DNA from: an uncultured Bacteroidales bacterium
Lineage (GTDB): Bacteria; Bacteroidota; Bacteroidia; Bacteroidales; Bacteroidaceae
Reading direction: 5' to 3'
Assembly (NCBI GenBank): GCA_902779845.1
Contig: CACZCZ010000003.1
Coordinates: 186,001 to 250,000 of the forward strand
Length of the DNA stretch: 64,000 nucleotides
The notes under the pieces were generated by a model. The model had not been told where the DNA came from. It worked only from the letters and a program-made list of their open reading frames with translations, and ran no database searches. The translations under genes were made by a program, and so were the position numbers. Numbering within the stretch: position 1 is the stretch's first letter; each line of letters begins with the position of its first letter. Of the stretch, positions 1,863 through 29,438 are shown piece after piece.

Positions 1863-2584
1863 CGTTCTGAAAGTAATGCCTCTGCAATCTTTAAATCGAA
1901 AGGCGTGGTGATTTTAATGTTTTCGCGGTTGCCGTCCACGAGGGTGACAGGATGGCCGAGGGCTTCGACGACGGAGGCGTCATCGGTGAAGGCCTCGGTA
2001 TAGGGTTGTTCGTAGGCGCAGAGGAGTAAGGGGAGCTGGAAAGTCTGGGGGGTCTGCACGAGACGGTAGAGGGAACGATCCACGGTGAGACTCACCCCCG
2101 GCCCCTCTCTTTCAAAGAGGGGAGGATTGGGGATGGGAGAGATTTTCCGCAGGGTCTCCACGACGGGGATGACGGGGACGACGGCGCCATGCCGGCGGGC
2201 TGCGTCGAAGGTGCGACGGATGACCTCTTCACTCACAAAAGGTCGCACGCCATCGTGGACAGCCACTAAGCTCTCCTCCCTCACGGGGGAGGGGTCGGGG
2301 GAGAGGCTTCTAAGACCATTCTTCACGGAATGGAATCGTGTCTCGCCGCCATCGGCGATGGTGTGAGGCACGATGAAATGGTGCTTTTTGCAGAGGTCGT
2401 GCCAAAAAGCCTGCTGATCCTTGGGGAGCACCAGGATGAGGCGAATGCCAGGGATGGCACGCTCGAAGACTTCAAGCGTGTGCATCAGCACAGGGCGCCC
2501 GCCGATGGGAAGGAACTGCTTGGGCAGGTCACCACCCATGCGCAAGCCCTTGCCGCCAGCTACGATGATGACACACTCGCTCAT
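1859..2584 (-). CDS. ispD: 2-C-methyl-D-erythritol 4-phosphate cytidylyltransferase
   Basis: IspD transfers CMP from CTP to methylerythritol phosphate in the non-mevalonate isoprenoid pathway (cytosol). The nucleotide-binding start [17 protein letters not shown] and the core AVHDGVRP are intact. I chose ATG at 2584 (MSECV) because it overlaps the stop of the upstream DJ-1 gene by 4 bp (ATGA); an ATG 15 bp earlier is less likely. Two segments look foreign to the family: [13 protein letters not shown] (about residues 93-105) and [18 protein letters not shown] (about 149-166). Each is encoded by a GC-rich palindrome in frame (see repeats at 2271 and 2091). Both probably lie in surface loops, since the flanking motifs are undisturbed. 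The gene dxr of the same pathway lies at 28.2 kb. Confidence 0.95.
2091..2138 (-). repeat. GC-rich palindromic insertion element in ispD (copy 1)
   Basis: An imperfect palindrome whose core reads CCCCTCTTTGAAAGAGAGGGG on the coding strand, flanked by CCCCAATCC and CCGGGGG. It is translated in frame as [16 protein letters not shown], a segment not expected in IspD. It shares layout (CCCC-rich left flank, short GGGAGGGG hairpin) with the copies at 2271, 7101, 9095, 12347, 23788 and 28253. Confidence 0.75.
2271..2308 (-). repeat. GC-rich palindromic insertion element in ispD (copy 2)
   Basis: The coding strand reads CTCTCCCCCGACCCCTCCCC, then GTGAGGGAGGAGAG, forming a CCTCCC/GGGAGG hairpin. It is translated in frame as [13 protein letters not shown] between NGLR and [10 protein letters not shown], which normally lie only a few residues apart in IspD. 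Confidence 0.75.
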
Positions 2585-3132
2585 GCAACCTCCGACCACA
2601 GCATTCCCTGCCTCAATGCATCTGCCGTTGCCTTATCCTTGAGGCGCTCCACGATGGCATAGCCGAACTCGAAGACAGCAGCGGGGCCCTTGCCGGTGAT
2701 GAAGAGGCCGTCCTGTTCCACGAGAGCACCAGTGTAGGTGGCACCCCTAAGCTCGGTCTCGAAGCCGGGGTAGCAGGTGGCACGCTTGCCGTCAAGCAAG
2801 CCCAGACGCCCCAGCACCAGCGGCGCAGCGCAGATGGCGGCCGCTGGACGGCCGAGATGGACGTGGTCAATCAGGCGCTCATTCAGGTCGGCACAGGCGG
2901 CGAGGTTGGTAGCGCCGGGCAGTCCGCCGGGGAAGATGAGCATGTCGGCATCGAAGAAGTCAACCTCGCTGAGCAAGGCGTCGGTCTCCACGCGGATGCC
3001 GTGGGCGCCGGTGACGGTGCGTTGACCTGTGATAGAAACGATTTGCAGGTCGAGGCCTGCACGGCGGATGATGTCGGCGGTGCCGAGAGCCTCAATCTCT
3101 TCGGTGCCGGTAGCAAAGAATAAGTAGATCAT
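2581..3132 (-). CDS. DJ-1/PfpI (ThiJ/YajL) family protein
   Basis: A 183-residue single-domain flavodoxin-like protein of the DJ-1/PfpI superfamily. The nucleophile-elbow cysteine is Cys101 in AAICAAP, and the conserved acidic residue lies in the N-terminal GTEEIEA motif. Members act as glyoxalases, deglycase-like enzymes or redox chaperones; the sequence alone does not say which. The length and the IFPGGLPGA loop match the YajL/DJ-1 branch. It lies 51 bp downstream of pdxJ and overlaps ispD by 4 bp, so it is the second gene of the operon. Confidence 0.88.
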
Positions 3133-3133
3133 A

Positions 3134-3183
3134 GTTGAGGGGTGAGAGTTTATGGTTGAGAGGTGAGGGTTTATGGTTGAGGG
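3134..3183. repeat. Short tandem junction repeat between pdxJ and the DJ-1 gene
   Basis: About two and a half copies of a 22-nt unit, ATGGTTGAGAGGTGAGGGTT with small changes, fill almost the whole gap between the two operon genes. It is one of many degenerate tandem repeats at gene junctions in this window. Confidence 0.75.
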
Positions 3184-3900
3184 TTATTTAAGTTGGGCAA
3201 GATAGCGGTGAATAGTGTCTTCGAGGCCGAAGTAGAGGGCATCGCAGATGAGGGCGTGGCCGATGCTTACCTCGTCGAGCCAGGGGATCTGCTGATGGAA
3301 GTAGGCGAGGTTCTGGAGGCTGAGGTCATGGCCGGCGTTCAGGCCGAGGCCGAAGTCGCGGGCAGCCTCGGCGGCACGGACGAAGGGGGCGATGGCAGAG
3401 CCGGGGTCGGCGGCGTAAGCCGCAGCATAAGGCTCGGTGTAGAGCTCCACGCGGTCGGCACCTGCACGGGCGGCGTATTCCACCATCTCCTCTTCGGCAT
3501 TCACGAAGATGCTGACGCGGATGCCAGCCTCGCGGAAGCGGGCCGTGACATCGGTGAGGAAGTTCAGGTGGGTCTTCGTGTCCCAGCCGTGGTTGCTGGT
3601 GATCTGGTCGTGGCCGTCGGGCACGAGGGTGACCTGCGTGGGCCTGTTCTCCAGCACGAGGGCGATGAACTCCGAGATGGGGTTGCCCTCGATGTTGAAC
3701 TCCGTGGTGAGACGGGGCTTTAGGTCACGCACATCCTGATAGCGGATATGGCGCTCATCGGGACGGGGGTGCACGGTGATGCCCTGCGCGCCGAAGCGCT
3801 CGCAGTCGAGAGCTACCTGCAGCACATTGGGGTTGTTGCCGCCGCGTGCGTTGCGGATGGTGGCCACCTTATTGATATTGACGCTCAGTTTTGTGGACAT
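3184..3900 (-). CDS. pdxJ: Pyridoxine 5'-phosphate synthase
   Basis: PdxJ condenses 1-deoxyxylulose 5-phosphate with 3-amino-2-oxopropyl phosphate to give pyridoxine 5'-phosphate, the last ring-forming step of DXP-dependent vitamin B6 synthesis. The TIM-barrel landmarks are present: [16 protein letters not shown] at the start, [31 protein letters not shown] and [10 protein letters not shown] prefer the ATG at 3900 (MSTKL, 238 aa), the usual family length, over one three codons upstream. A TACCTTTG box lies 31 bp upstream. It is the first gene of the leftward operon and divergent from tRNA-Ala and nadK. Confidence 0.96.
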
Positions 3901-3930
3901 AGCTAACACTTAGTTTGTGAGTTCTTTCTG

Positions 3931-3938
3931 CAAAGGTA
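3931..3938 (-). promoter_or_regulatory. Bacteroidetes -7 box for the pdxJ operon
   Basis: TACCTTTG followed by CAG on the minus strand, 31 bp before the pdxJ ATG. It matches the TAnnTTTG consensus of the primary sigma factor in this phylum. A clear -33 TTTG was not seen. Confidence 0.7.
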
Positions 3939-4064
3939 GCACAAAAGCGTGGAAAAAGACTCATAAAAGCATGAAAAATGAATAAATAGGGCCAAAAAAC
4001 AAGAAAATGACCGCATAGAATAAAAAAACTTTTGGTTTCTGTACACTAACTCTCAACTTTTCAG

Positions 4065-4072
4065 TACCTTTG
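4065..4072 (+). promoter_or_regulatory. Bacteroidetes -7 box for tRNA-Ala and nadK
   Basis: GTACCTTTGCG on the plus strand, 27 bp before the 5' end of the tRNA. It is the only promoter-like motif between pdxJ and the tRNA in this direction, so nadK is probably co-transcribed with the tRNA. Confidence 0.7.
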
Positions 4073-4098
4073 CGCGCTCATTTAAACACGACGATTCA

Positions 4099-4175
4099 GG
4101 GGATATAGCTCAGCTGGCTAGAGCGCAGCGTTCGCAACGCTGAGGTCGCGGGTTCGATTCCCGTTGTCTCCACCA
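4099..4175 (+). tRNA. tRNA-Ala (anticodon CGC), CCA encoded
   Basis: A full cloverleaf can be drawn: acceptor GGGGATA/TGTCTCC, D arm GCTC..GAGC, anticodon stem CAGCG/CGCTG with loop TTCGCAA (anticodon CGC, reads GCG), T arm GCGGG-TTCGATT-CCCGT, discriminator A and encoded CCA. The acceptor carries the G3:U70 wobble pair, the alanine identity element, which supports the assignment. nadK starts 11 bp after the CCA. Confidence 0.95.
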
Positions 4176-4186
4176 ACATCTTACCT

Positions 4187-5068
4187 ATGCGAAAACTCCG
4201 TTTTGCCCTCTTTGGAAATGTCTTCCAGGCCAAGAAATCGGCTTCGGTACAGAAACTGCTCTGCTTGTTGGATGAACAACAGGCTGAGATACTGATTGAC
4301 GAGCCTTTCCACCATTACCTGCAGAACGAACTACAGATTCAGATTCCGGCTGTGCGGATGATTCGCGGCGACGACTTTGCTGCCGACTATGTTATCTCCA
4401 TGGGCGGCGACGGCACGTTCCTTGAGGCAGCGCGGCGTGTAGGCGACAAGCAGATCCCTATTCTGGGCGTGAACATGGGAAGGCTGGGCTTCCTGGCTGA
4501 CATCACCCCCGAGGAATTGCCTGTTGCGATACATCAGATCTACACCGGTGATGTCCACGTGGAGGAGCGCAGTGTCTTGCAGTTGGAGTATGACAAAGGA
4601 CAGCCCGAAGGTTATCCCTTTGCGCTCAATGAGGTGGCGGTGCTGAAACGTGATATGTCCTCCATGATTTCCATCCGCGTGTCAATTAACGGCGAATACC
4701 TGACGACTTACCAGGCCGATGGCCTCATCATCAACACCCCCACAGGCTCGACGGGTTATGCCCTCAGCGTGGGAGGCCCGATTATGCAACCAGGCAGCCA
4801 CACCCTGGGCATTGTCCCCGTGGCACCCCATTCCTTGACGGTACGTCCTGTGATGCTGACCGATGACTCTGTCATTACCCTTTCCGTGTCAGCGCGCACT
4901 CATCGTTTCCTCGTCGCACTCGATGGCCGTAGTGAGAAATGCACCGAGGGCATTCAGCTGACCATTCGTCGTGCGCCCTATCAAGTCAAAATACTGAAAC
5001 GCCCCGACCAGAGTTTCTTCCGCACGTTAAGGATGAAACTGATGTGGGGCACTGATGTGAGAGAATGA
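4187..5068 (+). CDS. nadK: NAD kinase
   Basis: Phosphorylates NAD+ to NADP+ with ATP (cytosol). The GGDGT motif at residues 73-77 and the second conserved block NTPTGSTGYALSVGGP are intact, and 293 residues is the usual length for Bacteroidetes enzymes. The ATG lies 11 bp after the tRNA 3' end, so the mRNA would be released by tRNA processing if co-transcribed. The stop overlaps the ABC transporter start by 4 bp (ATGA). Confidence 0.96.
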   Translation: MRKLRFALFGNVFQAKKSASVQKLLCLLDEQQAEILIDEPFHHYLQNELQIQIPAVRMIRGDDFAADYVISMGGDGTFLEAARRVGDKQIPILGVNMGRLGFLADITPEELPVAIHQIYTGDVHVEERSVLQLEYDKGQPEGYPFALNEVAVLKRDMSSMISIRVSINGEYLTTYQADGLIINTPTGSTGYALSVGGPIMQPGSHTLGIVPVAPHSLTVRPVMLTDDSVITLSVSARTHRFLVALDGRSEKCTEGIQLTIRRAPYQVKILKRPDQSFFRTLRMKLMWGTDVRE

Positions 5069-6774
5069 AAGGCGAGAAAGGATATAGTACACGGCAGGTG
5101 CTCATCTGGTTCTGGCAGATCTTCCAGCAGGTGAAGCTGCAGTCGCTCATCAACACGGTGAGCAGCATCGCACGTGTGTTGTTGGATTTCGCCTTTATTT
5201 GGGCTACGAAACACGCCATCGATATAGCTACGGGCAGTGCCTCGCCCTCGTTTTTTGGCCCCTCGACGCTCTTCCAAGCTGGTGTGGTGCTGGTCATCGT
5301 GATGGCCTTGCAGCTGGCATTGGGTTATACGAACCGCTGGATGTCTGCCCTCTTGGGTGTCGAAGCCAAGAAGCGCATGCAACGTCGTCTCTTCGAACAC
5401 TTGCTGCGTAGTGAGTGGCATGGCAGGGAGCAGCGCCACAGCGGTGATGTGCTGAACCGACTTGTGAGCGACAGCCAGACCGTGGTGGCTATCGTCACTG
5501 ACACGCTTCCCCAATTCATTGCCGTGCTGGTGCGCCTGTTCTGCGCCTTCTTCTTCCTCTTCACCATGGATTCGACGCTGGCCATCGGCGTGACCATCAT
5601 CTTGCCGGCCTTCATCCTCCTCAGCCGTGCATACATCAATCGAATGAGGGCCATCACGCGCGATGTGAGAAAGACCGATAGCCACATTCAGGCCACGCTG
5701 CAAGAGAGTATTCAGCACCGTGTGATCCTGAAGACACTGGGACGTGTCCAGCTGATGGTCAAGACGCTGATGCAGTTGCAGAACACCTTGCGTCAGCAGG
5801 TGCGTCATCGTACGCTTTTCTCATCTACTTCGAACTTGGTGCTGAATCTTGGCTTTGGTATGGCATATCTGTTCACGTTCCTTTGGAGTGCCAATCGTCT
5901 GCTCGAAGGCACGATTACCTTTGGTATGATGACGGCGTTTATTCAGCTGTGCGGTCAGATTCAAGGTCCCTTCCGTGAGTTAACACGTTTTATTCCCACC
6001 ATCATCAGCAGTTTCACTGCCGCCGAGCGTCTCATGGAGTTGGAGGAGATTCCTTTGGAGTCCGATGGCAAGCCAGTGTTCTTCACCAAGAGCGTAGGCC
6101 TGCGTATTTCCGATGTCTCCTTTGCTTACGACATCAAGAATCGTCAGATTATCAGCCATGCCAACTATCAATTCCCTCCGGGCTCGTCCACCGCAATTTT
6201 GGGTGAGACGGGTGCTGGAAAGACCACACTCATCAGAATGATTCTGGCGTTGCTGCAGCCTACTGAGGGTGAAATCGTGATGTACGAGGAGGGCAACGAG
6301 GAGCAGGGCGTCCGCGTCAGTCCCCGAACACGTTGCAATTTAGTCTATGTTCCTCAGGGTAACACCCTCTTCAGCGGCACACTGCGCTGGAACCTTCGGC
6401 TGGGTAATCCCGATGCCACCGAGGCAGAGATGCAGGAGGCACTGGAGCTGGCTTGCGCGGATTTCGTTCAGGGCCTCCCCGATGGTCTCGACACGGTCAT
6501 CGGTGAAGGTGGAGCCGGTCTTTCCGAGGGGCAGGCACAGCGTATCGCCATAGCACGTTCGTTGCTCAAGCACGGTGCCATCCTGTTGCTTGACGAGGCC
6601 ACCAGCGCCCTTGACCAAATCACCGAGCAGACCCTGTTGAACAATCTCATTGAACACTACAATCGCCGTGCCGTTAAGCCGACGCTCATCTTCATCACCC
6701 ACCGTCCGGCTGTCCTGCGACACTGTTCGCAGATCATCACCTTGGAAAGACAACCCTACGCTACGAAGGCGTGA
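5065..6774 (+). CDS. ABC exporter half-transporter (MsbA/MDR-like)
   Basis: A 569-residue fused permease-ATPase. The N-terminal exporter membrane domain has about six helices within residues 15-310, ending in the coupling region before residue 345. The nucleotide-binding domain has Walker A GETGAGKT (about 380-387), signature LSEGQ (about 485), Walker B ILLLDEATSALD (about 503-514) and the switch histidine in FITHRP. It presumably homodimerises in the inner membrane to export a lipid or hydrophobic compound; the substrate cannot be read. It is translationally coupled to nadK by an ATGA overlap. Confidence 0.92.
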   Translation: MKGEKGYSTRQVLIWFWQIFQQVKLQSLINTVSSIARVLLDFAFIWATKHAIDIATGSASPSFFGPSTLFQAGVVLVIVMALQLALGYTNRWMSALLGVEAKKRMQRRLFEHLLRSEWHGREQRHSGDVLNRLVSDSQTVVAIVTDTLPQFIAVLVRLFCAFFFLFTMDSTLAIGVTIILPAFILLSRAYINRMRAITRDVRKTDSHIQATLQESIQHRVILKTLGRVQLMVKTLMQLQNTLRQQVRHRTLFSSTSNLVLNLGFGMAYLFTFLWSANRLLEGTITFGMMTAFIQLCGQIQGPFRELTRFIPTIISSFTAAERLMELEEIPLESDGKPVFFTKSVGLRISDVSFAYDIKNRQIISHANYQFPPGSSTAILGETGAGKTTLIRMILALLQPTEGEIVMYEEGNEEQGVRVSPRTRCNLVYVPQGNTLFSGTLRWNLRLGNPDATEAEMQEALELACADFVQGLPDGLDTVIGEGGAGLSEGQAQRIAIARSLLKHGAILLLDEATSALDQITEQTLLNNLIEHYNRRAVKPTLIFITHRPAVLRHCSQIITLERQPYATKA

Positions 6775-6814
6775 CAGCTCTGTCCGCTCGGCTTGCCGTT
6801 TTGCTATTTGACGA

Positions 6815-7831
6815 ATGTTCCACTATTCCCCTCTTTCCTTTATCAAGAACTGGACACTGCCTGTCGCTATTGCTGTAGGCGCTTCGTCCTATCTGCTCTT
6901 TGCCTACATCCCTGCTCTCGACGGAGCTGCCGACAGCCTTTTCCCCATTTTCGAGACGTTGTTGCCCATCACCATCTTCTTCACGCTGTTCATCACCTTC
7001 TCGAAGGTCGATTTCCACCTGATGCGCCTCCGCCCCTGGCACTTATACATCCTCGCCGTCCAGCTATTATTAGTAGGTGTACTCGTCCTCGCCTCATTCT
7101 TCCCTCTTCCCTCCCTGATGGGAGGGGTCGGGGGTAGTTCTTCCAAACTCCTCATCGAAGCCGTCCTCATGTGTGTCATCGCTCCCTGTGCCTCGGCTTC
7201 GCCTGTCGTGACGGCCAAATTGGGCGGCGACCTTACCCAGATGACTACCTTCGTGCTGCTGTCGTCGCTGGCGGCCTCGCTGCTCATTCCAGCGATCTTC
7301 CCGCTGTTGGAGCCCCATCCCGGGGGTACGTTCCTGGTGGTCTTTTGGCTCATCCTTCGTCGGCTGGCATCCGTCCTGCTGTTGCCGTTGCTTCTGGGCG
7401 CCATCGTGCGCCATTGGGTCAAGCCTTTATATAAATGGTTGGTGCGCACGCCCGATCTGGGTTTCTATTGCTGGAGTCTCTCGCTGGCCATCACCACGGG
7501 AATCACCGTCCGGAATATTGTCCACAGCCATGCCGGTGGCTTGTTGTTGGTGGCCATTGCTGTGCTGACCTTTTTCACCGCCATCTTTCAGTTTGCCATA
7601 GGGCGTTTCGTCGGACGTGTCGTAGGTGAAAAGGTTTGCACGGGTCAAGGGATGTTCCAAAAGAATACGGGGCTGGCCATCTGGATAGCTTATGTCTATC
7701 TCACACCCGTGGCTTCCATCGGTGCCGGTTGCTATGTGTTGTGGCAGAATATCATCAACTTCTACGAACTCTGGCAGCACCGACGTAGCGTCTCTCCAGA
7801 CCCTGGCACAGCAACAGTGTCCACAGCATAG
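6815..7831 (+). CDS. Predicted bile acid:sodium symporter-type (BASS-like) transporter
   Basis: A 338-residue inner-membrane protein with about nine to ten hydrophobic helices. The segment GQGMFQKNTGLAIWIAYVYL resembles the Gln/Asn-rich helix of the BASS fold, and APCASASPVVTAKLGG resembles its first crossover region. The substrate is unknown. Residues about 95-108 (PLPSLMGGVGGSS) come from a GC-rich palindrome inserted in frame. The last 77 bp overlap the 3' end of the convergent gene at 7755. Confidence 0.65.
   Translation: MFHYSPLSFIKNWTLPVAIAVGASSYLLFAYIPALDGAADSLFPIFETLLPITIFFTLFITFSKVDFHLMRLRPWHLYILAVQLLLVGVLVLASFFPLPSLMGGVGGSSSKLLIEAVLMCVIAPCASASPVVTAKLGGDLTQMTTFVLLSSLAASLLIPAIFPLLEPHPGGTFLVVFWLILRRLASVLLLPLLLGAIVRHWVKPLYKWLVRTPDLGFYCWSLSLAITTGITVRNIVHSHAGGLLLVAIAVLTFFTAIFQFAIGRFVGRVVGEKVCTGQGMFQKNTGLAIWIAYVYLTPVASIGAGCYVLWQNIINFYELWQHRRSVSPDPGTATVSTA
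7101..7134 (+). repeat. GC-rich palindromic insertion element in the BASS-like gene
   Basis: The core CCCTCCCTGATGGGAGGGG followed by TCGGGGG is the same design as the elements in ispD and recG. It is read in frame as PLPSLMGGVGG in a loop between predicted membrane helices. Confidence 0.7.
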
Positions 7832-8615: not shown

Positions 8616-8628
8616 ACGTTTTGCGGTG

Positions 8629-8636: not shown

Positions 8637-8640
8637 CGAA

Positions 8641-8820: not shown

Positions 8821-9093
8821 ATGAAGATTCAACCCCTTGCAGACCGAGTGCTCATTGAGCCCGCTGCAGCAGAAGAAAAGACCATCGGCGGCATCATCAT
8901 CCCCGACACCGCCAAAGAGAAACCCCTTCAGGGTAAAGTAGTTGCCGTTGGCAAAGGCACCAAGGATGAAGAGATGGTGCTGAAGGCTGGCGACACCGTA
9001 CTGTATGGCAAGTATGCCGGCACAGAGCTGGAGTTCGAGGGCCAGAAGTACCTCGTGATGCGCCAGAGCGACGTGGTGGCCGTTATTGCCTAA
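8821..9093 (+). CDS. groES: Co-chaperonin GroES (Hsp10)
   Basis: A 90-residue Hsp10 that caps the GroEL folding chamber. The start [19 protein letters not shown], the mobile loop around [17 protein letters not shown] and the C-terminal hydrophobic strand are typical. groEL follows after 163 bp, an unusually long gap that contains two facing copies of a GC-rich repeat. Confidence 0.98.
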
Positions 9094-9094
9094 A

Positions 9095-10888
<1,794 letters not shown>

Positions 10889-10970: not shown

Positions 10971-13241
10971 GTGTCTTCGTGCCGTGGTTCACGAAATTTT
11001 TATTACCTTTGCAACGCAAATCACGAAACAATCAGCCTTCAACTTTCATCTTTCAACTATAAACTTTCATCTACATACCGTACCCCCAAAAAAGCCATCG
11101 ACCTCTCAACTCCCATCACCTATCTGCCCGGCGTAGGCCCGCAACGTGCCAAGCTGCTGGAATCGGAACTGAATATCATCACGTTCCGAGACCTACTGTA
11201 TTATTTCCCTTACAAGCACATCGACCGTTCGCGTTTATACTATGTCCATGAGCTGACTCCCGAGATGCCCTTCGTGCAGGTCAAGGGTGAGATTCTCAGC
11301 TTCGAGGAAGAGGGACAAGGGCGTAAGCGACGTCTTATTGCCCATTTCACCGATGGAATGGGGCTTATAGATCTGGTGTGGTTCCAGGCGGGGACTTTCC
11401 GCTGGATCAAGAAGAGCTACCTCATTGGGAAACAGTATATTGTCTTCGGGCGCCCCGGTGTCTTCAAGGACCGAATCAACATCCCGCACCCGGACATCGA
11501 TTCCGCTGACAGTTTGCAGCTGGGCACGATGGGGCTGCAGCCCTACTACAACACCACGGAGCGGATGAAGAAGGGCGGTCTCAACAGTCGCAGCATCGAG
11601 CGCTTCACAGGGACGTTGTTTGAGCGTCTGTCAGCCTTACCCCTCAATGACCCTGACCCCCTCCCCGCCGCGCTCCGCCAACAGCTCAACCTCATCCCCT
11701 TGTGGCAGTCGCTTCACGACCTGCATTATCCTCCTTCGGCCGAGGCGCTGCGTCGGGCCACCTACCGTCAGAAGTTCGAGGAGCTGTTCTTCATTCAATT
11801 AGGTCTTTTGCGCTTCGCCCGCCTGCGTCAGCAGCAGGTCTCGGGGTATGTCTTTGCTCATGTCGGTGAGCGCTTCAACACCTTCTATCGCGATTATCTC
11901 CCCTTTGAACTGACCAATGCGCAGAAGCGTGTCATCCGCGAGATGCGGCATGACATGGGCAGCGGCAAGCAGATGAACCGCCTGCTGCAAGGCGATGTCG
12001 GCAGCGGCAAGACGCTGGTGGCACTGATGACGATGCTCATCGCTCTTGACAACGGCTATCAGGCCTGTCTCATGGCACCCACCGAGATTCTGGCCGAGCA
12101 GCATTATGCCACCTTCAAGGAGTTCCTAGGCGATATGCCCGTGCGTGTGGAACTGCTCACAGGATCTGTGAAGGGGAAACGTCGCAGGGAACCTATATTA
12201 AAAGGTACGCGCGCGGGCGAGGTAGATATCCTCATTGGCACTCATGCGGTGTTAGAAGATACGGTGGCGTTCAACCGCCTTGGCCTTGTAGTCATCGATG
12301 AGCAGCATCGCTTCGGCGTGGCACAAAGGGCTAAGCTGTGGAAAAGACCAGCCCCCAACCCCTCCTGTCAGGGAGGGGAGGCGGTGGAGAGGCCACCCCA
12401 TGTCCTTGTGATGACCGCCACGCCTATTCCCCGCACCTTGGCGATGACCCTATACGGCGACCTCGACGTTAGCGTCATCGATGAGCTGCCACCTGGCCGC
12501 AAACCCATTGAGACACGCCACTTCTGGGAGGAGCGCACGGAAAGCCTTTATCGAGGTATTCGTACGGAAATCTCCAAGGGACGGCAGGTCTATGTCGTCT
12601 ATCCCCTTATCAAAGAGAGCGAGAAGATGGATATTCAAGACTTGGAGAACGGCTACGCTGACTTGTGTCATGCCTTCCCCGACTTGCGTATCTCCAAGGT
12701 CCACGGCCAGATGAAATCGGCTGAGAAGGACGATGAAATGGATCGTTTTGTACGTGGCGAGACACAGATTCTCGTGGCCACCACCGTGATAGAAGTTGGC
12801 GTCAATGTGCCCAATGCCTCGGTGATGGTCATTCAGAACGCCGAGCGCTTCGGCCTGGCGCAGCTCCATCAGTTGCGCGGTCGCGTGGGTCGCGGTGCCG
12901 AACAGAGCTATTGTATTTTAGTTACCAAATACCAGATTTCTCCTGAGACAAAGAAACGCATTGAGATTATGTGCGAGACCAACGACGGCTTCGAGATTGC
13001 CGAGGCAGACCTAAAGTTCCGTGGCCCCGGCGACCTTGAGGGGACACAGCAGAGCGGAATGGCCTTCGACCTGCACATCGCCAATCTTGCACGCGACGGA
13101 CAGTTGGTGCAGCTGGCTCGGGACACCGCCAATCATATTCTGGACGAAGACCCGCAGCAATGCAAGCCCGAGTATGCATCGATGTGGCAGCACCTTCGCG
13201 ACCTCGGCAAATCAGCCATAGACTGGAGTAATATATCCTAA
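10971..13241 (+). CDS. recG: ATP-dependent DNA helicase RecG (start uncertain)
   Basis: RecG reverses stalled forks and branch-migrates Holliday junctions. The N-terminal wedge starts near TPITYLPGVGPQRAKLL. Walker A is QGDVGSGKT (about 339-347), the DEAH-type box is VVIDEQHRFG, then MTATPIPRT, and the C-terminal helicase lobe ends in the TRG region. The only possible standard start is GTG at 10971, inside the groEL terminator T-run and upstream of a TACCTTTG box at 11004. No ATG, GTG or TTG lies in frame between that box and the conserved domain. PAPNPSCQGGEAVER (about 458-474), just before PPHVLVMTATP, is a palindromic insertion. Confidence 0.92.
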   Translation: MSSCRGSRNFYYLCNANHETISLQLSSFNYKLSSTYRTPKKAIDLSTPITYLPGVGPQRAKLLESELNIITFRDLLYYFPYKHIDRSRLYYVHELTPEMPFVQVKGEILSFEEEGQGRKRRLIAHFTDGMGLIDLVWFQAGTFRWIKKSYLIGKQYIVFGRPGVFKDRINIPHPDIDSADSLQLGTMGLQPYYNTTERMKKGGLNSRSIERFTGTLFERLSALPLNDPDPLPAALRQQLNLIPLWQSLHDLHYPPSAEALRRATYRQKFEELFFIQLGLLRFARLRQQQVSGYVFAHVGERFNTFYRDYLPFELTNAQKRVIREMRHDMGSGKQMNRLLQGDVGSGKTLVALMTMLIALDNGYQACLMAPTEILAEQHYATFKEFLGDMPVRVELLTGSVKGKRRREPILKGTRAGEVDILIGTHAVLEDTVAFNRLGLVVIDEQHRFGVAQRAKLWKRPAPNPSCQGGEAVERPPHVLVMTATPIPRTLAMTLYGDLDVSVIDELPPGRKPIETRHFWEERTESLYRGIRTEISKGRQVYVVYPLIKESEKMDIQDLENGYADLCHAFPDLRISKVHGQMKSAEKDDEMDRFVRGETQILVATTVIEVGVNVPNASVMVIQNAERFGLAQLHQLRGRVGRGAEQSYCILVTKYQISPETKKRIEIMCETNDGFEIAEADLKFRGPGDLEGTQQSGMAFDLHIANLARDGQLVQLARDTANHILDEDPQQCKPEYASMWQHLRDLGKSAIDWSNIS
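11004..11011 (+). promoter_or_regulatory. -7 box near the recG start
   Basis: TACCTTTG followed by CAACG matches the phylum consensus. It lies inside the longest possible recG reading frame, about 85 bp before the conserved N-terminus, so the frame upstream of it is probably not translated. Confidence 0.55.
12347..12392 (+). repeat. GC-rich palindromic insertion element in recG
   Basis: CCAGCCCCCAACCCCTCC, then TGTCAGGGAGGGGAGGCGG: the same CCCC-flank plus CCCTCC/GGGAGGGG hairpin as in ispD. It is read in frame as PAPNPSCQGGEAVE between the DEAH box and motif III of the helicase. Confidence 0.8.
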
Positions 13242-21520: not shown

Positions 21521-21527
21521 CGGGGCA

Positions 21528-22568: not shown

Positions 22569-23163
22569 GGCTGTGGATGTCATTGAGGTCGCGATAGTAG
22601 CCACATGCCTTGATTTCTTCCCATACGCGGGGATGCAGGCCGTAGCCGTCGTAAGCAGGGTCGTGGGCGATGGCCTCGCGGATCTGTGTGGATGAGATGT
22701 CGTGGAGGGGCGTCTGGATGAGGGTGACACCTGCGGGCAGCGCCGCTTCGTCGATGGGGGAGCCGGGTCGTGGATAGACGAGGAGGCGGTGGTGGCGCAG
22801 GATTTCATCGGACTGGTACCATTGCGGGAAACGATGCCAGTTGTCAGCGCCAATGACGAGTACGAAGTCGCGGTCGGGGTAGGCGCTGCGAAGAGCTTCC
22901 AGCGTGTGGACCATGTAGGAGGGTCGGGGCATGTGGCACTCAAAGTCGCTGACGTGCAGTTTGTGCTTGCGTCCTACGGCAAAGCGTGCCAGCTGCAAGC
23001 GGGCGTCATCATCCAAGAGACCTGATGCGGGCTTCAGCGGGTTCTGCGGTGACACCAGAAACCACAACTCATCCACCAAGTGGTGAGCCACCAGCCACTG
23101 CCCGAGGGCTGTGTGGCCATTGTGGATGGGGTTGTAGCTGCCGCCGAAGAGACCGATTGTCAT
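22561..23163 (-). CDS. nadD: Nicotinate-nucleotide adenylyltransferase
   Basis: Adenylates nicotinate mononucleotide in NAD synthesis (cytosol). The nucleotidyltransferase signature GGSYNPIHNGH is at residues 7-17 and the ISSTQIR motif is near 158-164. At 200 aa it is the usual size. It follows gmk after a 65-bp gap filled with a tandem junction repeat and overlaps the GH109-like gene. Confidence 0.96.
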   Translation of the reverse strand: MTIGLFGGSYNPIHNGHTALGQWLVAHHLVDELWFLVSPQNPLKPASGLLDDDARLQLARFAVGRKHKLHVSDFECHMPRPSYMVHTLEALRSAYPDRDFVLVIGADNWHRFPQWYQSDEILRHHRLLVYPRPGSPIDEAALPAGVTLIQTPLHDISSTQIREAIAHDPAYDGYGLHPRVWEEIKACGYYRDLNDIHSHA

Positions 23164-23195
23164 GTGAGGGGGTGCGCTGTCGCGCGGAAAAGGGG

Positions 23196-23235
23196 TAAGA
23201 AGTTTAAGAGTTTAAGGAGTTTAAGGGTTTAAGGA
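23196..23235. repeat. Tandem junction repeat between nadD and gmk
   Basis: AAGTTTAAGAGTTTAAGGAG and continuing copies of GTTTAAG(G/A) in seven- to eight-nucleotide steps run up to and include the gmk stop codon. Confidence 0.75.
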
Positions 23236-23858
23236 TTCAGGAAATTGTGGATGGCAGTATAGGCTTCGGTCTTGGCGGCTTCGAGGTCGTCGTTGACCAC
23301 CACCTTGTCGAAATAAGGGGCGAAGGAGAGTTCGTACTCGGCGCGGTCGAGGCGCTGCTGGATGACCTCCGGGCTGTCGGTGCCGCGGCCTTCGAGTCGC
23401 TGGCGCAGCACCTCGATGCTGGGCGGCTGTATGAAGAGGCTGAGGGCACGGCTGCCGAAGCACTCTTTGAGGCGCATGCCACCATGTACGTCAACATCGA
23501 AGACCACGTTCTGCCCGGCGGCCAGCTGGTTGTCCACCTGCGAGGTGAGGGTGCCGTAGAAACGGTCGGTATAGACTTCCTCGTACTCGATGAAGTCGTT
23601 GGCGGCGATGTGCTTGCGGAACTCTTCGGGCGACATGAAGAGGTACTCCACGCCATTACGCTCCTGCCCGCGGGGCGGACGTGTGGTGGCGGAGACGGAG
23701 AAGAAGAGGTTCAGCTCCTGACATGGCATCAGACTGCTGATGATGGTGCTCTTGCCGCTGCCGCTGGGGGCACAGAAGATAATGACGGACCCTCCCCCTT
23801 GCCCCTCCCTTGCAGGGCGGGGAGTAGAATGTTTTTGGCTATTGTTGTCTTTTAGCAT
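23229..23858 (-). CDS. gmk: Guanylate kinase
   Basis: Phosphorylates GMP to GDP. The P-loop APSGSGKST (about 30-38) and the GMP-binding TTRPPRGQERNGVEYLF are intact. The N-terminus is longer than usual: residues about 11-25 (STPRPAREGQGGGS) are encoded by a GC-rich palindromic element, so the enzyme proper begins at VIIFCAPSG. It lies 3 bp after yicC, the standard Bacteroidetes order yicC-gmk-nadD. Confidence 0.96.
   Translation of the reverse strand: MLKDNNSQKHSTPRPAREGQGGGSVIIFCAPSGSGKSTIISSLMPCQELNLFFSVSATTRPPRGQERNGVEYLFMSPEEFRKHIAANDFIEYEEVYTDRFYGTLTSQVDNQLAAGQNVVFDVDVHGGMRLKECFGSRALSLFIQPPSIEVLRQRLEGRGTDSPEVIQQRLDRAEYELSFAPYFDKVVVNDDLEAAKTEAYTAIHNFLNP
23788..23827 (-). repeat. GC-rich palindromic insertion element in the gmk N-terminus
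   Basis: The coding strand reads CTACTCCCCGCCCTGCAAGG then GAGGGGCAAGGGGGAGGGT: hairpin CTCCCCGCCCTGCAAGGGAGGGG, read in frame as STPRPAREGQGGG. Confidence 0.75.
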
Positions 23859-23861
23859 ATC

Positions 23862-24740: not shown

Positions 24741-24768
24741 ATTTCAACTTTCAACTTAATTTCCGCCG

Positions 24769-24776
24769 CAAAGGTA
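24769..24776 (-). promoter_or_regulatory. -7 box for the yicC operon
   Basis: CTACCTTTGCGG on the minus strand, back to back with the tsaB promoter 50 bp away. Confidence 0.7.
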
Positions 24777-24818
24777 GTAAAAAAACGTAAAACAGAAGTT
24801 TTAATCATAAATAATGTG

Positions 24819-24826
24819 TACCTTTG
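24819..24826 (+). promoter_or_regulatory. -7 box for the tsaB operon
   Basis: TGTACCTTTGCGG on the plus strand, 53 bp before the tsaB GTG. The leader holds a tandem TAAATTGT/CAAATTGT repeat. Confidence 0.7.
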
Positions 24827-24879
24827 CGGCCTAAAATTGATAAATTGTATATTATAAATCGTCAAATTGTCCAATTAAA

Positions 24880-25578
24880 GTGGCTTGCATATTACATATT
24901 GAAACCAGCACAAAGGTGTGTTCCGTGGCTGTAACAGAAGATGCTCATGTCATCTTTGAGCAGACTGATGCCGAGGGCCCGAACCACGCCACGAAATGCG
25001 GTGTCTTCGTGGAGGAGGCTCTGAGCTTCGCTGAGAGTCATGCTATCCCCCTGGATGCTGTGGCTGTCTCGGAGGGTCCTGGCAGCTACACGGGCTTGCG
25101 TATCGGTGTGTCGATGGCCAAGGGCGTGGCCTACGGTCGCGGTGTCTCCCTCGTGGCGGTGCCAACGCTGGAGCTGCTATGTGTGCCCGTGCTCCTCTAT
25201 CGCGAGGACATCCCTGACGAGGCTCTGTTTGTGCCCATGATAGATGCCCGCCGGATGGAGGTTTATGCCGCTGTCTATGACCGTGCGCTGAAGGCGCTGC
25301 GCCCTGTGCAGGCGGACATCGTGGATGCCGACACCTACAAGGAATGGCTTGACCGTGCCCCCGTCTATTTCTTTGGCGACGGCTCTGCCAAGTGCAAGGA
25401 GGTCATCACTCACCCCAATGCCCATTTTATCGACGGCATTCAGCCCTTGGCCAAGCACATGTACCCGCTGGCAGCCCGCGCCCTCTCGCGCGGTGAGCTG
25501 GCCGATGTCGCATATTTCGAACCCTTCTACTTCAAGGACTTCGTGGCCACCAAACCAAAAGATCTTTTACACTCATAG
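24880..25578 (+). CDS. tsaB: tRNA threonylcarbamoyladenosine biosynthesis protein TsaB
   Basis: TsaB is the scaffold partner of TsaD in making t6A37 of ANN-decoding tRNAs. The ASKHA fold start (A)CILHIETSTKVCSVAV and the conserved SEGPGSYTGLRIGVSMAKG block are diagnostic. Start is GTG (24880); 232 aa is normal. It heads the rightward run tsaB-DUF4290-murA-rimM-dxr-rseP. Confidence 0.95.
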   Translation: MACILHIETSTKVCSVAVTEDAHVIFEQTDAEGPNHATKCGVFVEEALSFAESHAIPLDAVAVSEGPGSYTGLRIGVSMAKGVAYGRGVSLVAVPTLELLCVPVLLYREDIPDEALFVPMIDARRMEVYAAVYDRALKALRPVQADIVDADTYKEWLDRAPVYFFGDGSAKCKEVITHPNAHFIDGIQPLAKHMYPLAARALSRGELADVAYFEPFYFKDFVATKPKDLLHS

Positions 25579-25595
25579 ACCACAGGTCCCGTCAA

Positions 25596-25628
25596 TCATA
25601 AAATTGTAAATTGTAAAATTGTCAAATA
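25596..25628. repeat. Tandem junction repeat after tsaB
   Basis: TAAAATTGTAAATTGTAAAA followed by TTGTCAAAT: seven- to eight-nucleotide AAATTGT steps directly before the next ATG. Confidence 0.7.
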
Positions 25629-25631
25629 CCA

Positions 25632-26222
25632 ATGACATACAACACCCAACGCGAGAAGCTCATCCTGCCCGAATACGGGCGCACAATCCAGGAAATGGTG
25701 GATATCTGCATGAGCATCGAAGACCGCAAAGAGCGCCAGCAGTGCGCCGAGAGCATCATTGAAATCATGCAGACCATGAACCCCAATGTGCGTCAACAGC
25801 CTGATTATGAACACAAGTTGTGGGATCAGCTGGCCATCCTTTCCAACTATAAGCTTGATATTGACTATCCCTTTGAGGTCGTGAAGGAAGAGGAGATAGC
25901 TGCCAAACCCAAGCCCCTCAAATACCCGATGCAACGCATCCGCTATCGCCACTACGGCCACCTCACCGAGGCATTCCTCAAGGAACTTAAGGAGATGCCG
26001 GAGAGCGAAGACCGTGAGCGGCTCACCAGCATGATAGCTAACTTCATGAAGCGCAGCCTCTACAACTGGAATCGCGATGCCATGGACGAACGTAAGGTGA
26101 GCGCCGACATGACAGCCTACACCGACGGCTCCGTCAATATTCCCGCGGATTTCCATTATGTCTCCGTCAGCAATGGCCATCTGCCCGGCAGCAACGCCAG
26201 CAAGAAGAAGAAAAGGCGCTAA
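25632..26222 (+). CDS. DUF4290 domain protein
   Basis: A 196-residue soluble protein recognised by its conserved start (TYNTQREKLILPEYGRTIQ) and the MNP..RQ..DYEHKLWDQL segment. DUF4290 is essentially confined to Bacteroidetes and regularly precedes murA; no function is known. The C-terminus is a lysine-rich tail (KKKKRR). There is no signal peptide or membrane helix. Confidence 0.9.
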   Translation: MTYNTQREKLILPEYGRTIQEMVDICMSIEDRKERQQCAESIIEIMQTMNPNVRQQPDYEHKLWDQLAILSNYKLDIDYPFEVVKEEEIAAKPKPLKYPMQRIRYRHYGHLTEAFLKELKEMPESEDRERLTSMIANFMKRSLYNWNRDAMDERKVSADMTAYTDGSVNIPADFHYVSVSNGHLPGSNASKKKKRR

Positions 26223-26229
26223 GAGGCGT

Positions 26230-26280
26230 AATGATCTCTAGAAAATCGAGATGCTCTAGACTCTCTAGAACTATCTAATT
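26230..26280. repeat. Junction repeat before murA
   Basis: CTCTAGA-type units recur (ATCTCTAGAAA, GCTCTAGACT, CTCTAGAACT) as degenerate, partly palindromic steps in the 99-bp gap before the murA ATG. Confidence 0.6.
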
Positions 26281-26321
26281 CCGTTTTCTTGAACTTTCAA
26301 CCCCTTAATCGTTCATCGGAA

Positions 26322-27629
26322 ATGAGCTCATTCCAAATCGAAGGAGGCCATCGCCTCTCAGGAGAGATTGTCCCGCAGGGCGCTAAGAACGAAGCCTTGC
26401 AAGTGCTGTGCGCCGTGCTGTTGACCGATCAGCCCGTGCGCATTCATAATATACCCGATATTGCCGATGTCAACAACCAGATTCAGCTGTTGCGTGATGT
26501 TGGCGTGAAGGTGGCGCAGAACGGTAAGGGCGACTACACCTTCCAGGCCGATGACGTGAACCTGGACTTTCTGGAGAGCGATGAATTTCTGGAGCGGTCG
26601 GCACGTCTGCGTGGCAGCATTATGCTCGTGGGCCCACTTTTGGCTCGTTATGGGCGGGCCGTGGTGTCAAAGCCTGGCGGCGACAAGATTGGCCGCCGCC
26701 GTGTTGACACTCACTTCCTGGGCATGGAGAAGCTTGGTGCACACTTCAGCTACGATGTGGAGCGCAGCCTCTTCCGCATTACCGCCGACAAGTTGAAGGG
26801 CACATATATGCTCCTTGACGAGGCCTCGGTGACCGGCACCGCCAACATCATTCTGGCGGCCGTGCTGGCAGAGGGAACCACGACCATCTACAACGCCGCC
26901 TGCGAGCCTTACGTGCAGCAACTCTGCCGGATGCTCAACGCAATGGGCGCGCGCATTGAAGGTATCGCCTCGAACCTACTGACTATCCATGGCGTAGCTT
27001 CGCTCCACGGCACCGACCACCGCATCCTTCCCGACATGATTGAGGTAGGCTCATTCATCGGCATGGCTGCCATGTGCGGCGACGGCATCCGCATCAAGGA
27101 TGTCAGCTACGACGACCTCGGCATCATCCCCTACACCTTCCGCCGCATGGGCATCAGTGTGCAGCGACAGGGCGATGACATCTATGTTCCCTGTCACGAC
27201 CACTACGAGATAGAATCCTTCATCGATGGCTCCTTCATGACCTTCAGCGATGCCCCCTGGCCGGGACTCACCCCCGACCTGCTGAGCGTACTGCTGGTGG
27301 TGGCTACTCAGGCCAAGGGCTCGGTGCTCATTCATCAGAAGATGTTCGAGAGCCGCCTGTTCTTTGTGGATAAGCTCATCGACATGGGCGCTCAGATTAT
27401 CCTGTGTGATCCCCACCGCGCTGTCGTCGTGGGGCACGACCACCAGTTGCGCCTGCGAGCCGGCCGAATGACATCACCCGATATCCGTGCCGGCATCGCC
27501 CTGCTCATCGCTGCCATGAGCGCCGAGGGCACCAGCACCATCAGCAATATCCAGCAAATCGACCGCGGCTACGAGGCCATCGACCAACGTCTGAATGCTT
27601 TGGGAGCGGTGATTAAGAGAATAGAATAA
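26322..27629 (+). CDS. murA: UDP-N-acetylglucosamine 1-carboxyvinyltransferase, Asp-type active site
   Basis: MurA makes UDP-GlcNAc-enolpyruvate, the first committed step of peptidoglycan. I chose ATG 26322 (MSSFQIEGG, 435 aa), the usual length; an in-frame TTG 33 bp earlier is unlikely. The loop that normally holds the catalytic cysteine reads PGGDKIGRRRVD, so the cysteine is replaced by Asp121. Known Asp-type MurA enzymes are active but resist fosfomycin, because there is no thiol to alkylate. The substrate motif QGAKNE and the C-terminal SNIQQIDRGYE are intact. Confidence 0.96.
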   Translation: MSSFQIEGGHRLSGEIVPQGAKNEALQVLCAVLLTDQPVRIHNIPDIADVNNQIQLLRDVGVKVAQNGKGDYTFQADDVNLDFLESDEFLERSARLRGSIMLVGPLLARYGRAVVSKPGGDKIGRRRVDTHFLGMEKLGAHFSYDVERSLFRITADKLKGTYMLLDEASVTGTANIILAAVLAEGTTTIYNAACEPYVQQLCRMLNAMGARIEGIASNLLTIHGVASLHGTDHRILPDMIEVGSFIGMAAMCGDGIRIKDVSYDDLGIIPYTFRRMGISVQRQGDDIYVPCHDHYEIESFIDGSFMTFSDAPWPGLTPDLLSVLLVVATQAKGSVLIHQKMFESRLFFVDKLIDMGAQIILCDPHRAVVVGHDHQLRLRAGRMTSPDIRAGIALLIAAMSAEGTSTISNIQQIDRGYEAIDQRLNALGAVIKRIE

Positions 27630-27671
27630 GCCCCATAGGTCCAATAAGCCCCAATATGTCTCGATAGTCCC

Positions 27672-28217
27672 ATGATTACAGAATCCGAGGTTTATAAAAT
27701 AGGTACGCTCACGCGCACACATGGCGTGCGAGGGGAACTGGCGTTCCAGTTCACCGACGATGTCTGGGATCGCGTGGATGCCGACTACCTCTTCCTGCGT
27801 CTGGACGGTTTGCTTGTACCCTTCTTCCTTGAGGAATGGCGCTTCCGCTCGGACAGCGTGGCGCTCGTGAAGTTCGAGGATATCGACAGCGCTGATGCTG
27901 CAGGTCAGCTCGTGGGCGCAGAGGTCCTCTTCCCCAAGGCTCTCACGCCCGAGGACATCGACGATGAAGACCTCACGTGGCAGCACTTTATAGGCTTTGA
28001 AGTCATGAACTCTCCCGAGGGCTCTCCCGAGGGTGTTCTTCTCGGCACTGTCAGCGCCGTATATGACCAGACGGCTAACATCCTCTTGGAGGTGACCGCG
28101 CCAGAGGGCGGCAGCGTCCTCATCCCAGCTCACGAGGATTTCGTCCTCCGCGCCGACCACCACGATCGCCGTCTCTATGTTGATGTCCCAGAAGAACTAC
28201 TGAATTTGAATAGCTAA
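27672..28217 (+). CDS. rimM: 16S rRNA processing protein RimM
   Basis: RimM binds ribosomal protein S19 and assists 30S head maturation. The N-terminal beta barrel (KIGTLTRTHGVRGELAFQF) and the C-terminal PRC barrel (about 95-180, ending LIPAHEDFVLRADHHDRRL) are present. A 12-bp tandem duplication at about 28010-28034 gives the repeat SPEGSPEG in the hinge or barrel loop. Confidence 0.95.
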   Translation: MITESEVYKIGTLTRTHGVRGELAFQFTDDVWDRVDADYLFLRLDGLLVPFFLEEWRFRSDSVALVKFEDIDSADAAGQLVGAEVLFPKALTPEDIDDEDLTWQHFIGFEVMNSPEGSPEGVLLGTVSAVYDQTANILLEVTAPEGGSVLIPAHEDFVLRADHHDRRLYVDVPEELLNLNS

Positions 28218-28223
28218 TCAAAT

Positions 28224-29438
28224 ATGAAATATACTCCACACTCAAAGGATCAAACTCCGTTCTCCCCAAGAGAGGGGCAGAGGAGTGAGCCTAAACAAAT
28301 CGCCATCCTCGGTTCCACCGGTAGCATTGGCACCCAAGCCCTGCAGGTTATCGCGGCTCACCCCGACCGCTTTGCAGCCCGCGTCCTCACGGCCAACAAC
28401 CGTTGGGAACTGTTGGCAGAGCAGGCGCGACAGTTTATGCCCGCTGCCGTGGTCATCGCCAACGAGAACTACTACCCCGCCTTGCGCGATTCGTTGGCCG
28501 ACCTCCCCATCGCCGTCTATGCCGGTGCCGATGCACTCTGTCAGGTGGTAGAGGGTACGGAGGTGGATATTGTGCTCACGGCAATGGTGGGCTTTGCCGG
28601 TCTGCCGCCCACGATAGCGGCCATCAAGGCAGGCAAGCCGATAGCTTTGGCCAACAAGGAGACAATGGTTGTGGCCGGTGAGCTCATCAACGGTCTCTGC
28701 CGCAAATACCAGGTTCCCATCCTGCCTGTCGATAGCGAACATAGTGCCATCTTCCAAAGCATCATGGGGGAGGTGTCGCCCATCGAGAGGATCATCCTCA
28801 CAGCCTCCGGAGGACCCTTCCGCACATTCACCCGTGAGCAGCTGGAGACCGTCACACCTGCCATGGCCCTCAAACACCCGAACTGGGATATGGGCGCCAA
28901 GATCACCATCGACTCGGCTTCCATGATGAACAAAGGTTTTGAGGTCATCGAGGCCAAGTGGCTCTTTGGCGTGGAACCCGACCGCATTCAGGTGGTGGTG
29001 CACCCGCAGAGCGTGGTTCACAGTGCCGTGCAGTTCGCTGACGGTGCCGTGAAGGCGCAGCTCGGTGTGCCCGACATGCGTGTGCCCATTCAGTTGGCCT
29101 TCTCGTTCCCCGAGCGCCTGCATAGCGACTTCGATCGCCTTGACTGGTTCACGATGCATGACCTGACCTTTGAGCGCCCCGACACCGAGCGCTTCCGCTG
29201 CCTGGCCCTCGCCTATGAGAGCTTGCAGCAAGGCGGTAATATGCCCTGTATTGTCAACGCCGCCAACGAAATCGTCAACCGTGCCTTCCTCGAAGGCCGC
29301 TGCCGCTTCCTGGAGATGGCCGATATCATCGAGCGAACCATGCAGCGCGCCACCTTCATCAAACAGCCCTCCTATGAGGACTACCTTGAAACGGATAAGG
29401 AGGCGAGGAGGATTGCTGCGCAACTCCTACAATCGTAA
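28224..29438 (+). CDS. dxr: 1-deoxy-D-xylulose 5-phosphate reductoisomerase
   Basis: Converts DXP to methylerythritol phosphate with NADPH, the step before IspD. The NADPH loop GSTGSIGTQAL, ANKETMV, the metal-site region PVDSEHSAIFQ and TASGGPFR are present. The enzyme proper starts at KQIAILGSTG; the preceding 24 residues include TPFSPREGQRSEP, encoded by a GC-rich palindromic element. The ATG lies 6 bp after rimM. Confidence 0.97.
   Translation: MKYTPHSKDQTPFSPREGQRSEPKQIAILGSTGSIGTQALQVIAAHPDRFAARVLTANNRWELLAEQARQFMPAAVVIANENYYPALRDSLADLPIAVYAGADALCQVVEGTEVDIVLTAMVGFAGLPPTIAAIKAGKPIALANKETMVVAGELINGLCRKYQVPILPVDSEHSAIFQSIMGEVSPIERIILTASGGPFRTFTREQLETVTPAMALKHPNWDMGAKITIDSASMMNKGFEVIEAKWLFGVEPDRIQVVVHPQSVVHSAVQFADGAVKAQLGVPDMRVPIQLAFSFPERLHSDFDRLDWFTMHDLTFERPDTERFRCLALAYESLQQGGNMPCIVNAANEIVNRAFLEGRCRFLEMADIIERTMQRATFIKQPSYEDYLETDKEARRIAAQLLQS
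28253..28290 (+). repeat. GC-rich palindromic insertion element in the dxr N-terminus
   Basis: ACTCCGTTCTCCCCAAGAGA then GGGGCAGAGGAGT: hairpin CTCCCCAAGAGAGGGG flanked by complementary ACTCC and GGAGT, read in frame as TPFSPREGQRSE. Confidence 0.7.

Follow-up and report, generated by a model that had tools for sequence, protein, structure and literature searches.

A BoxC/PIT/TM-type triplex repeat that probably persists in frame within housekeeping genes of a Bacteroidales bacterium

How can a palindromic repeat lie inside one housekeeping gene after another and leave their reading frames open? The question is raised by a stretch of 64,000 nucleotides from an uncultured Bacteroidales bacterium of the Bacteroidaceae (assembly GCA_902779845.1, contig CACZCZ010000003.1, positions 186,001 to 250,000), called the window below, in which copies of a short GC-rich repeat lie within ispD, recG and other genes. 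With a probability of roughly three in four, these are BoxC/PIT/TM-type triplex repeats, a non-autonomous dispersed family whose copies are retained in frame as tolerated passengers. In this reading, the best support goes to the plan of the repeat, to the finding of no gene-disrupting copies and to orthologues that lack the segments.

Copies of the Repeat in the Window

The window was searched, with filters off, with a covariance model of the repeat (R1). This model was trained on 20 copies, which include the recG and BASS copies, two of the seven good copies in the window. Those seven, all at E 8.4e-5 or better, lie where the original prediction had put them: in ispD (two), a BASS-like gene, recG, gmk and the groES-groEL interval. 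The next-best match in the window, at 27264-27299, has an E-value of 0.064.

1862-2599, minus strand: ispD reading frame with two in-frame elements (Pfam PF01128, E 1.4e-48; orthologue alignment)
2088-2124, plus strand: element in the second ispD loop, opposite-strand reading, part of a 17-residue stretch (R1 39.5 bits, E 7.4e-7)
2271-2308, minus strand: element in the first ispD loop, encoding a 13-residue stretch (R1 35.2 bits, E 6.2e-6)
7106-7141, minus strand: element in the SBF/BASS-like gene 6815-7831 (plus strand), peptide LPSLMGGVGGSS (R1 46.8 bits, E 2e-8; Pfam PF01758)
9094-9132, plus strand: element right behind the stop of groES (8821-9093), first of a facing pair (R1 29.9 bits, E 8.4e-5)
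9211-9246, minus strand: element 10 nt ahead of the groEL start (9257), second of the facing pair (R1 34.7 bits, E 7.7e-6)
12345-12380, plus strand: element in recG 10971-13241 (plus strand), in the interval between the DEQH and TATP motifs, peptide RPAPNPSCQGGE (R1 50.4 bits, E 3.4e-9; alignment with 1gm5)
23788-23824, plus strand: element in the N-terminal extension of gmk 23229-23858 (minus strand), peptide STPRPAREGQGGGS (R1 30.9 bits, E 5.1e-5; Pfam domain from residue 25)
28255-28291, minus strand: degenerate element-like stretch in the N-terminal extension of dxr 28224-29438 (plus strand) (R1 7.9 bits, E 4.1, not significant alone)

Pfam confirms IspD, SBF (BASS-like), Cpn60, RecG, guanylate kinase and DXP reductoisomerase in the window, and groES was named from its translation, not by a search. 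The two ispD copies and those in recG and the BASS-like gene are internal, and the gmk and dxr copies sit in N-terminal extensions ahead of the Pfam domain. The predicted facing pair between groES and groEL is present and, given the groEL start at 9257, lies inside neither gene. For dxr, the predicted copy holds in part: a degenerate stretch is there, but its score is not significant, which makes it a decayed copy at best. When the eight window stretches were folded as single-stranded DNA, only one was clearly better than its shuffles (z -3.0), the others ranging from -1.3 to +0.4; by itself, this folding is unremarkable. A search of Rfam gave tRNA as the sole match.

Architecture of the Element

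The consensus of the repeat is AGACCCACCCCCAACCCCTCCCGTnAGGGAGGGGAG, and three subtypes can be distinguished by eye: A (AGACCCACCCCCAACCCCTCCC-GTTA-GGGAGGGGAG), B (with CCCCCCTGCCCCTCCC) and C (AGCCTCACCCCCGACCCCTCTCC..GGCGAGGGGAG). It had been predicted to be a hairpin. A hairpin is present, but the C-rich flank also fits it as a third strand. On the G-rich strand, the tail fits the purine arm as a third strand in antiparallel orientation (G.GC, A.AT and T.AT), with eight of eight triplets in 116 of 151 copies, seven in 25 and fewer in 10; two of 153 places were left out of this test. The mean is 7.65 of 8 triplets, versus 4.92 with shuffled and 6.42 with reversed tails. At position 7, an A in the arm goes with A or T in the tail in 43 of 43 copies and a G with G in 93 of 108. 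A plain hairpin or terminator does not account for everything, as it leaves unexplained that the C-rich flank is as conserved as the arms and fits them as a third strand. Judged by its sequence, the repeat is more than a hairpin and follows the three-strand plan of BoxC/PIT/TM repeats, a kind already described. Its G/C-rich hairpin has arms of about 8-9 bp, and the purine-rich tail of 8-9 nt could fold back as a third strand to form a triplex.

The TM/PIT/BoxC repeats of E. coli (Holder et al. 2015, PMC4666352) have motifs such as CCCTCTCCCTTGAGGGAGAGGGTTAGGGTGAGGGT, and their formation of a triplex in vitro is reported. The likeness extends to the hairpin CCCTCTCC..GGAGAGGG followed by the purine tail GGGGTGAGG, a class II purine motif, as well as to the length of about 36 nt, the dispersed distribution, the inverted neighbours, the two subtypes and the absence of a reported transposon link. 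E. coli MG1655 carries 23 TM copies, all intergenic, with five inverted pairs and no transposon link (PMC4666352). In contrast, at least 151 copies were found here, many of them in frame within genes.

Copy Number and Spread

In the genome of the window (G000; 2.92 Mb, 47 contigs, 85.9% complete), the pattern CCCCNRMCCCTCN{2,24}GAGGG has 67 + 66 = 133 matches, some overlapping, and the reversed pattern 0 + 0. The repeat is thus dispersed in many copies, far above chance. A genome-wide covariance-model search, suggested together with the prediction, did find further copies, with at least 151 R1 matches in this genome (150 of 1507 first-look candidates scored). Nine copies among the matches listed form a cluster from C20:26937 to C20:35831.

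The prediction of a dispersed family is supported in this genome and also in relatives. Of 301 genomes sampled from the bacterial family, 103 have at least one pattern match, across 13 of 30 genera and with a maximum of 204, and 52 have 10 or more; these counts include overlapping matches, and single matches mean little, since the reversed control gives 0 or 1 per strand per genome. Within the genus of the bacterium, counts range from 0 to 133. Such patchy counts fit an element that spreads and is lost. In other phyla, one hairpin-pattern scan gave at least 117 stretches, of which 80 were listed, from many phyla as judged by titles.

These numbers bear on the objection that the segments are not insertions but ordinary loops of variable length or errors of assembly. 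The two ispD loops do differ in length from one orthologue to the next, and the G000 assembly is incomplete and in many contigs. However, at least 151 copies of one design occur at unrelated loci, and the repeat is present in genomes listed as 99-100% complete (e.g., G246, G192 and G149), which leaves this objection extremely improbable.

In-Frame Copies inside Genes

Copies within genes keep the frame. A codon-score heuristic was applied to 150 nt on each side of 153 places in G000: 27 copies have coding sequence on both sides in one open frame, and none is frameshifted or stopped, whereas about one third would be in frame by chance if insertion changed the frame at random. Applied to 61 of the 141 places listed for G246, which belongs to another genus, the test found 6 copies in frame and none disruptive. 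The intergenic location reported for E. coli thus does not hold here, the 27 G000 copies being in frame with flanking coding sequence.

A separate classification, leaving out 3 of the 153 places that had no clear anchor, gives a strict class of 26 internal copies in 24 open reading frames (ORFs); Pfam was run on 21 of these ORFs and found a family match in all 21. By Pfam domain, the hosts include glycine dehydrogenase, glutamate synthase (two copies), diaminopimelate epimerase, Mfd, MutS2, MetH, Tex, carbamoyl-phosphate synthase and CobU. Beyond the strict class, recG, PyrG and TsaD are among the genes with in-frame copies. The counts of N-terminal (48) and C-terminal (23) copies are upper bounds.

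The in-frame retention of copies within genes is well supported. The 27 and 6 copies in frame versus none and none disruptive are as expected from purifying selection on the host genes. Through such selection a copy would stay in its gene with its peptide as a tolerated passenger. The copies that persist would be those that keep the frame open and sit in tolerant loops, linkers or termini, so that they would be read as segments of 12-14 residues (longer for a pair). The open frames suggest that the element peptides are translated, and that the cell makes any use of them would be a further supposition.

The original prediction went further, in seeing the hairpin as selected to be translatable, which is more than the data need. 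Another reading holds that insertions are kept for the function of the encoded loop. One register indeed dominates among 97 coding calls (29/5/4 for same-strand and 30/11/18 for opposite-strand copies), while the open registers, by contrast, number 116/124/100 and 131/104/103 of 150 copies. Peptide hydropathy also tracks flank hydropathy (rho 0.33, p 0.001), but the effect is gone against unused open registers (rho 0.16, p 0.14), a register bias is also expected from tolerance of Pro/Gly/Ser-rich loops, and IspD orthologues manage without the segments. Selection for a useful loop is very unlikely. The idea that hydrophobic context, as in signal peptides, sets the register was suggestive by eye and in the raw correlation; it was rejected, as it is not significant versus unused registers (p = 0.14 and 0.11).

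Comparison with Orthologues and Structures

An alignment with orthologues, which had been proposed as a check, was made for IspD. Thirty ispD loci were retrieved and 26 same-genus orthologues were aligned besides our own; L199, L205 and L206 were omitted (stops in the match), and G379, G235 and G309 were inspected separately. Both segments proved to be absent from the 26 orthologues or replaced by shorter or unlike loops. Element-like peptides occur in other IspDs, in loop 1 of G379 and at the N-terminus of G334, so IspD has been hit more than once. In the G000 assembly, which is incomplete, ispD has one match, so that the cell presumably relies on the enzyme carrying both inserts.

Comparisons with structures show extra residues as well. 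Compared with 5ddt, IspD has 7 and 11 extra residues; compared with 1gm5, RecG has 13 in the interval between the DEQH and TATP motifs; compared with 9kao, PyrG has 16 at its second element and a divergent loop at its first. In the AlphaFold model of IspD (27 sequences; mean predicted local distance difference test score, pLDDT, 90.7), the two segments are modelled as coil, within blocks whose mean is 74.

Some IspDs carry other peptides of note. In G379 (L209), loop 1 contains two element-like peptides in tandem and loop 2 is a long Ser/Pro-rich tract. Repeat-like peptides were seen in L181, L198, L200 and L207, namely STPLLYREGQGGES (one N-terminus), SLPSGRVRGRG (two N-termini) and SSPFGGSEGG (a third loop); these are perhaps further repeat families. 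At another locus (L101, 1197-4130), carA and carB form one frame with element peptides in the linker. This element linker is missing in most of the relatives found (12 of 15 genomes matched). That the element created the carA-carB fusion is not supported, several same-genus relatives sharing one long frame with a shorter linker.

Pair Geometry

Neighbouring copies mostly face each other. Among G000 model matches less than 400 bp apart, 32 pairs are convergent, 6 run in the same direction and none is divergent. In G246, within 300 bp, the counts are 37 (one of them two readings of one hairpin), 5 and 0, and 14 of the 37 convergent pairs have a spacing of exactly 43 bp. A matrix scan with 54 convergent and no divergent pairs within 240 bp is supporting only; it was trained on the same copies and gave 26 matches on reversed sequence. 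The 80 listed loci of other phyla show 8 convergent, 3 divergent and 5 same-direction neighbours within 250 bp, so the strict polarity of G000 and G246 is not universal.

In the G000 pairs, tails point outward, gaps are about 30-185 bp and spacers are variable and partly host DNA. This differs from E. coli, where, in the four of five TM pairs that were compared, the tails by our own reckoning face inward, with gaps of 16-27 bp (PMC4666352). The family often takes the form of convergent, tail-outward pairs, some of them apparently REPIN-like cassettes with a fixed spacer and others copies that bracket host coding DNA. As a separate observation, 8 of 48 G000 spacers form one group with a short-period GGAATAACGGAATAACG tract (e.g., C1:15017-15167).

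A far-reaching proposal, which we regard as tentative and more probably wrong than right, makes the repeat a mobile, REPIN-like triplex unit that supplies in-frame loops to essential enzymes in several genera. On this view, the tail-outward pairs, among them those that flank host coding DNA, would reflect an undescribed two-ended insertion process requiring no known transposase.

Against the reading of the copies as triplex-type passengers of a dispersed family, several observations have to be weighed. The frame calls are heuristic, and that of an N-terminal copy at 9094-9132 is wrong, groES being on the other strand. The IspD inserts are not the least certain part of the model, block 11-20 having a mean pLDDT of 60 versus their 74. 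The triplet offset was picked to maximise matches, and the copies are mutually related; swapping tails among copies lowers the mean only from 8.07 to 7.57 of 9 triplets, and this small loss means that the match is mostly shared design with little covariation. The stretch between the two ispD elements, the conserved host VHDGVRPF block, is not accounted for by a simple cassette, and neither is that in PyrG, which includes the conserved GGTMRLGA block. Such conserved host DNA between pairs leaves two options: a pair of insertions with fixed polarity, or a process placing two copies around DNA already there. Only 13 of the 48 G000 spacers resemble another in sequence; they fall into two groups, of which one is a simple intergenic tract. 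Finally, no strain-level empty site was found, so that the ends of the element, a target duplication and movement are inferred only.

Movement and the RAYT Question

Copies of the passenger family would most likely move by a copying process that passes through single-stranded DNA, with a RAYT/HUH-like protein or another one acting on it in trans. A candidate for this protein is the REP-associated transposase (RAYT) of repetitive extragenic palindromes (REPs): the repeat would be a REP copied by the long RAYT-like HUH protein of these genomes. RAYT was sought by Pfam, protein and profile searches, a flank scan and counts; the association statistics ignore phylogeny. A protein like the G000 RAYT is present in 27 of 52 genomes with at least 10 matches versus 53 of 249 with fewer (odds ratio, OR, 4.0; p 2e-5), and in 14 of 20 genomes with at least 40 (OR 7.6). 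PF01797 is weakly associated with any match or at least 5 (OR 1.9; p 0.014 and 0.037), but not significantly at thresholds of 10, 20 and 40 (p 0.15, 0.11 and 0.62). Among 50 RAYT-bearing loci scanned, 8 contain a copy (13 matches), and G017 has three copies within ~500 bp of its RAYT gene; having been trained on G000 copies, the scan model may overlook other subtypes.

Conversely, G089, G100, G115, G148, G178, G185, G221 and G258, with 29-76 matches each, have neither a PF01797 nor a RAYT-profile match, and two of these copy-rich genomes, G178 and G258, are 99% complete. In G000, a profile search found eight RAYT-like loci, and none among the matches listed lies within 2.5 kb of one (the nearest, C7:47711, at 2.6 kb); as 2-3 copies would be expected there by chance, this absence is weak evidence. 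Another repeat, GTTCGTAGGGTTTTCC, lies directly downstream of the C7 RAYT, and the consensus of our repeat has neither GTAG nor CGTC at the hairpin foot, GTAG occurring only 3' of the hairpin in some copies. The search for a RAYT partner, one of the checks suggested for the prediction, thus gave mixed evidence and did not establish one. A REP/RAYT system seems doubtful.

The GTTCGTAGGGTTTTCC repeat is itself a candidate cognate of the C7 RAYT. This 16-mer occurs at 20 places in G000 with up to 2 mismatches (control 2), often as close inverted pairs, and it is contained in a perfect inverted repeat of the window (44599-44678; 35-nt arms, 10-nt loop). Between its HUH and Y motifs, the C7 RAYT gene has in-frame tandem repeats of 30 bp and 21 bp (L031, 1667-1869), which recall the repeats reported within genes of TnpA-Y1 subclass 2.4 (PMC6006769).

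The spread could also do without a transposase, if the structure stalls replication and template-switch repair copies the motif to nearby single-stranded DNA. Template switching would yield clusters and inverted neighbours, such as the nine-copy cluster on C20; some pairs bracket host coding DNA (ispD, PyrG), and TM sites are reported to be unstable, with no transposon link (PMC4666352). The identical 43-bp spacing of 14 G246 pairs at scattered places, however, fits a copied unit (spacing was compared, not spacer sequences), and the strict tail-outward polarity requires an extra assumption. We consider this route unlikely.

Relation to Known Systems and Significance

The prediction had compared the repeat with the Rickettsia palindromic elements. 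The parallel stands in that reading frames run through the copies, but in-frame palindromes outside Rickettsia have already been described (PMC3733652, Di Nocera et al. 2013). As in the Rickettsia elements and the intragenic GTAG/CGTC REPs of that paper, palindromes lie in varied ORFs, in frame, single or dimeric, and N-terminal cases are often doubtful in both. Unlike the GTAG/CGTC REPs, the present repeat is untagged in its consensus and has a third-strand-like tail. CGTC repeats are listed there for the phylum Bacteroidetes, and Prevotella is unmentioned in the main text.

REPINs (PMC3116915) and the Bacteroidetes TnpA-Y1 subclasses 2.4 and 2.6 (PMC6006769) share with the repeat the paired inverted hairpins and the in-gene repeats that keep the frame; unlike them, it showed no consistent gene partner here, has no foot tag and, in G000, has variable spacers. 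The same hairpin core is found in the Enterobacter sp. 638 repeats CCCTCTCCCXX(X)GGGAGAGGG (100 copies; PMC2869309), which differ in lying often at gene 3' ends, as presumed terminators and not as in-frame segments.

The main text of PMC4666352 does not mention "bacteroid", and no description of in-frame triplex repeats, or of this family in Prevotella, was recognised in the open-licence PubMed Central literature, which is weak evidence of absence. The kind of repeat, a triplex-type one, is known; its behaviour, in frame in many housekeeping genes and in tail-outward pairs, is new to the literature found. Two separate literatures are thereby joined, that on triplex-type repeats (intergenic and unstable in E. 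coli) and that on in-frame palindromic repeats in proteins. Copies inside genes should, going by their open frames, add small extra loops to housekeeping proteins. If the reading is right, these genomes contain dozens of natural experiments on the sites at which an enzyme accepts a defined additional peptide. Such segments would then have to be expected in annotation and in structural biology, and the repeat would offer a concrete case for studying how DNA of this sort is copied around a genome.

Other Features of the Window

Two perfect hairpins, with arms of 20 and 17 nt, lie at 33463-33507 and 55110-55151; by eye they are unlike the repeat. A plus-strand open frame of 2628 amino acids extends from 36494 to 44380.

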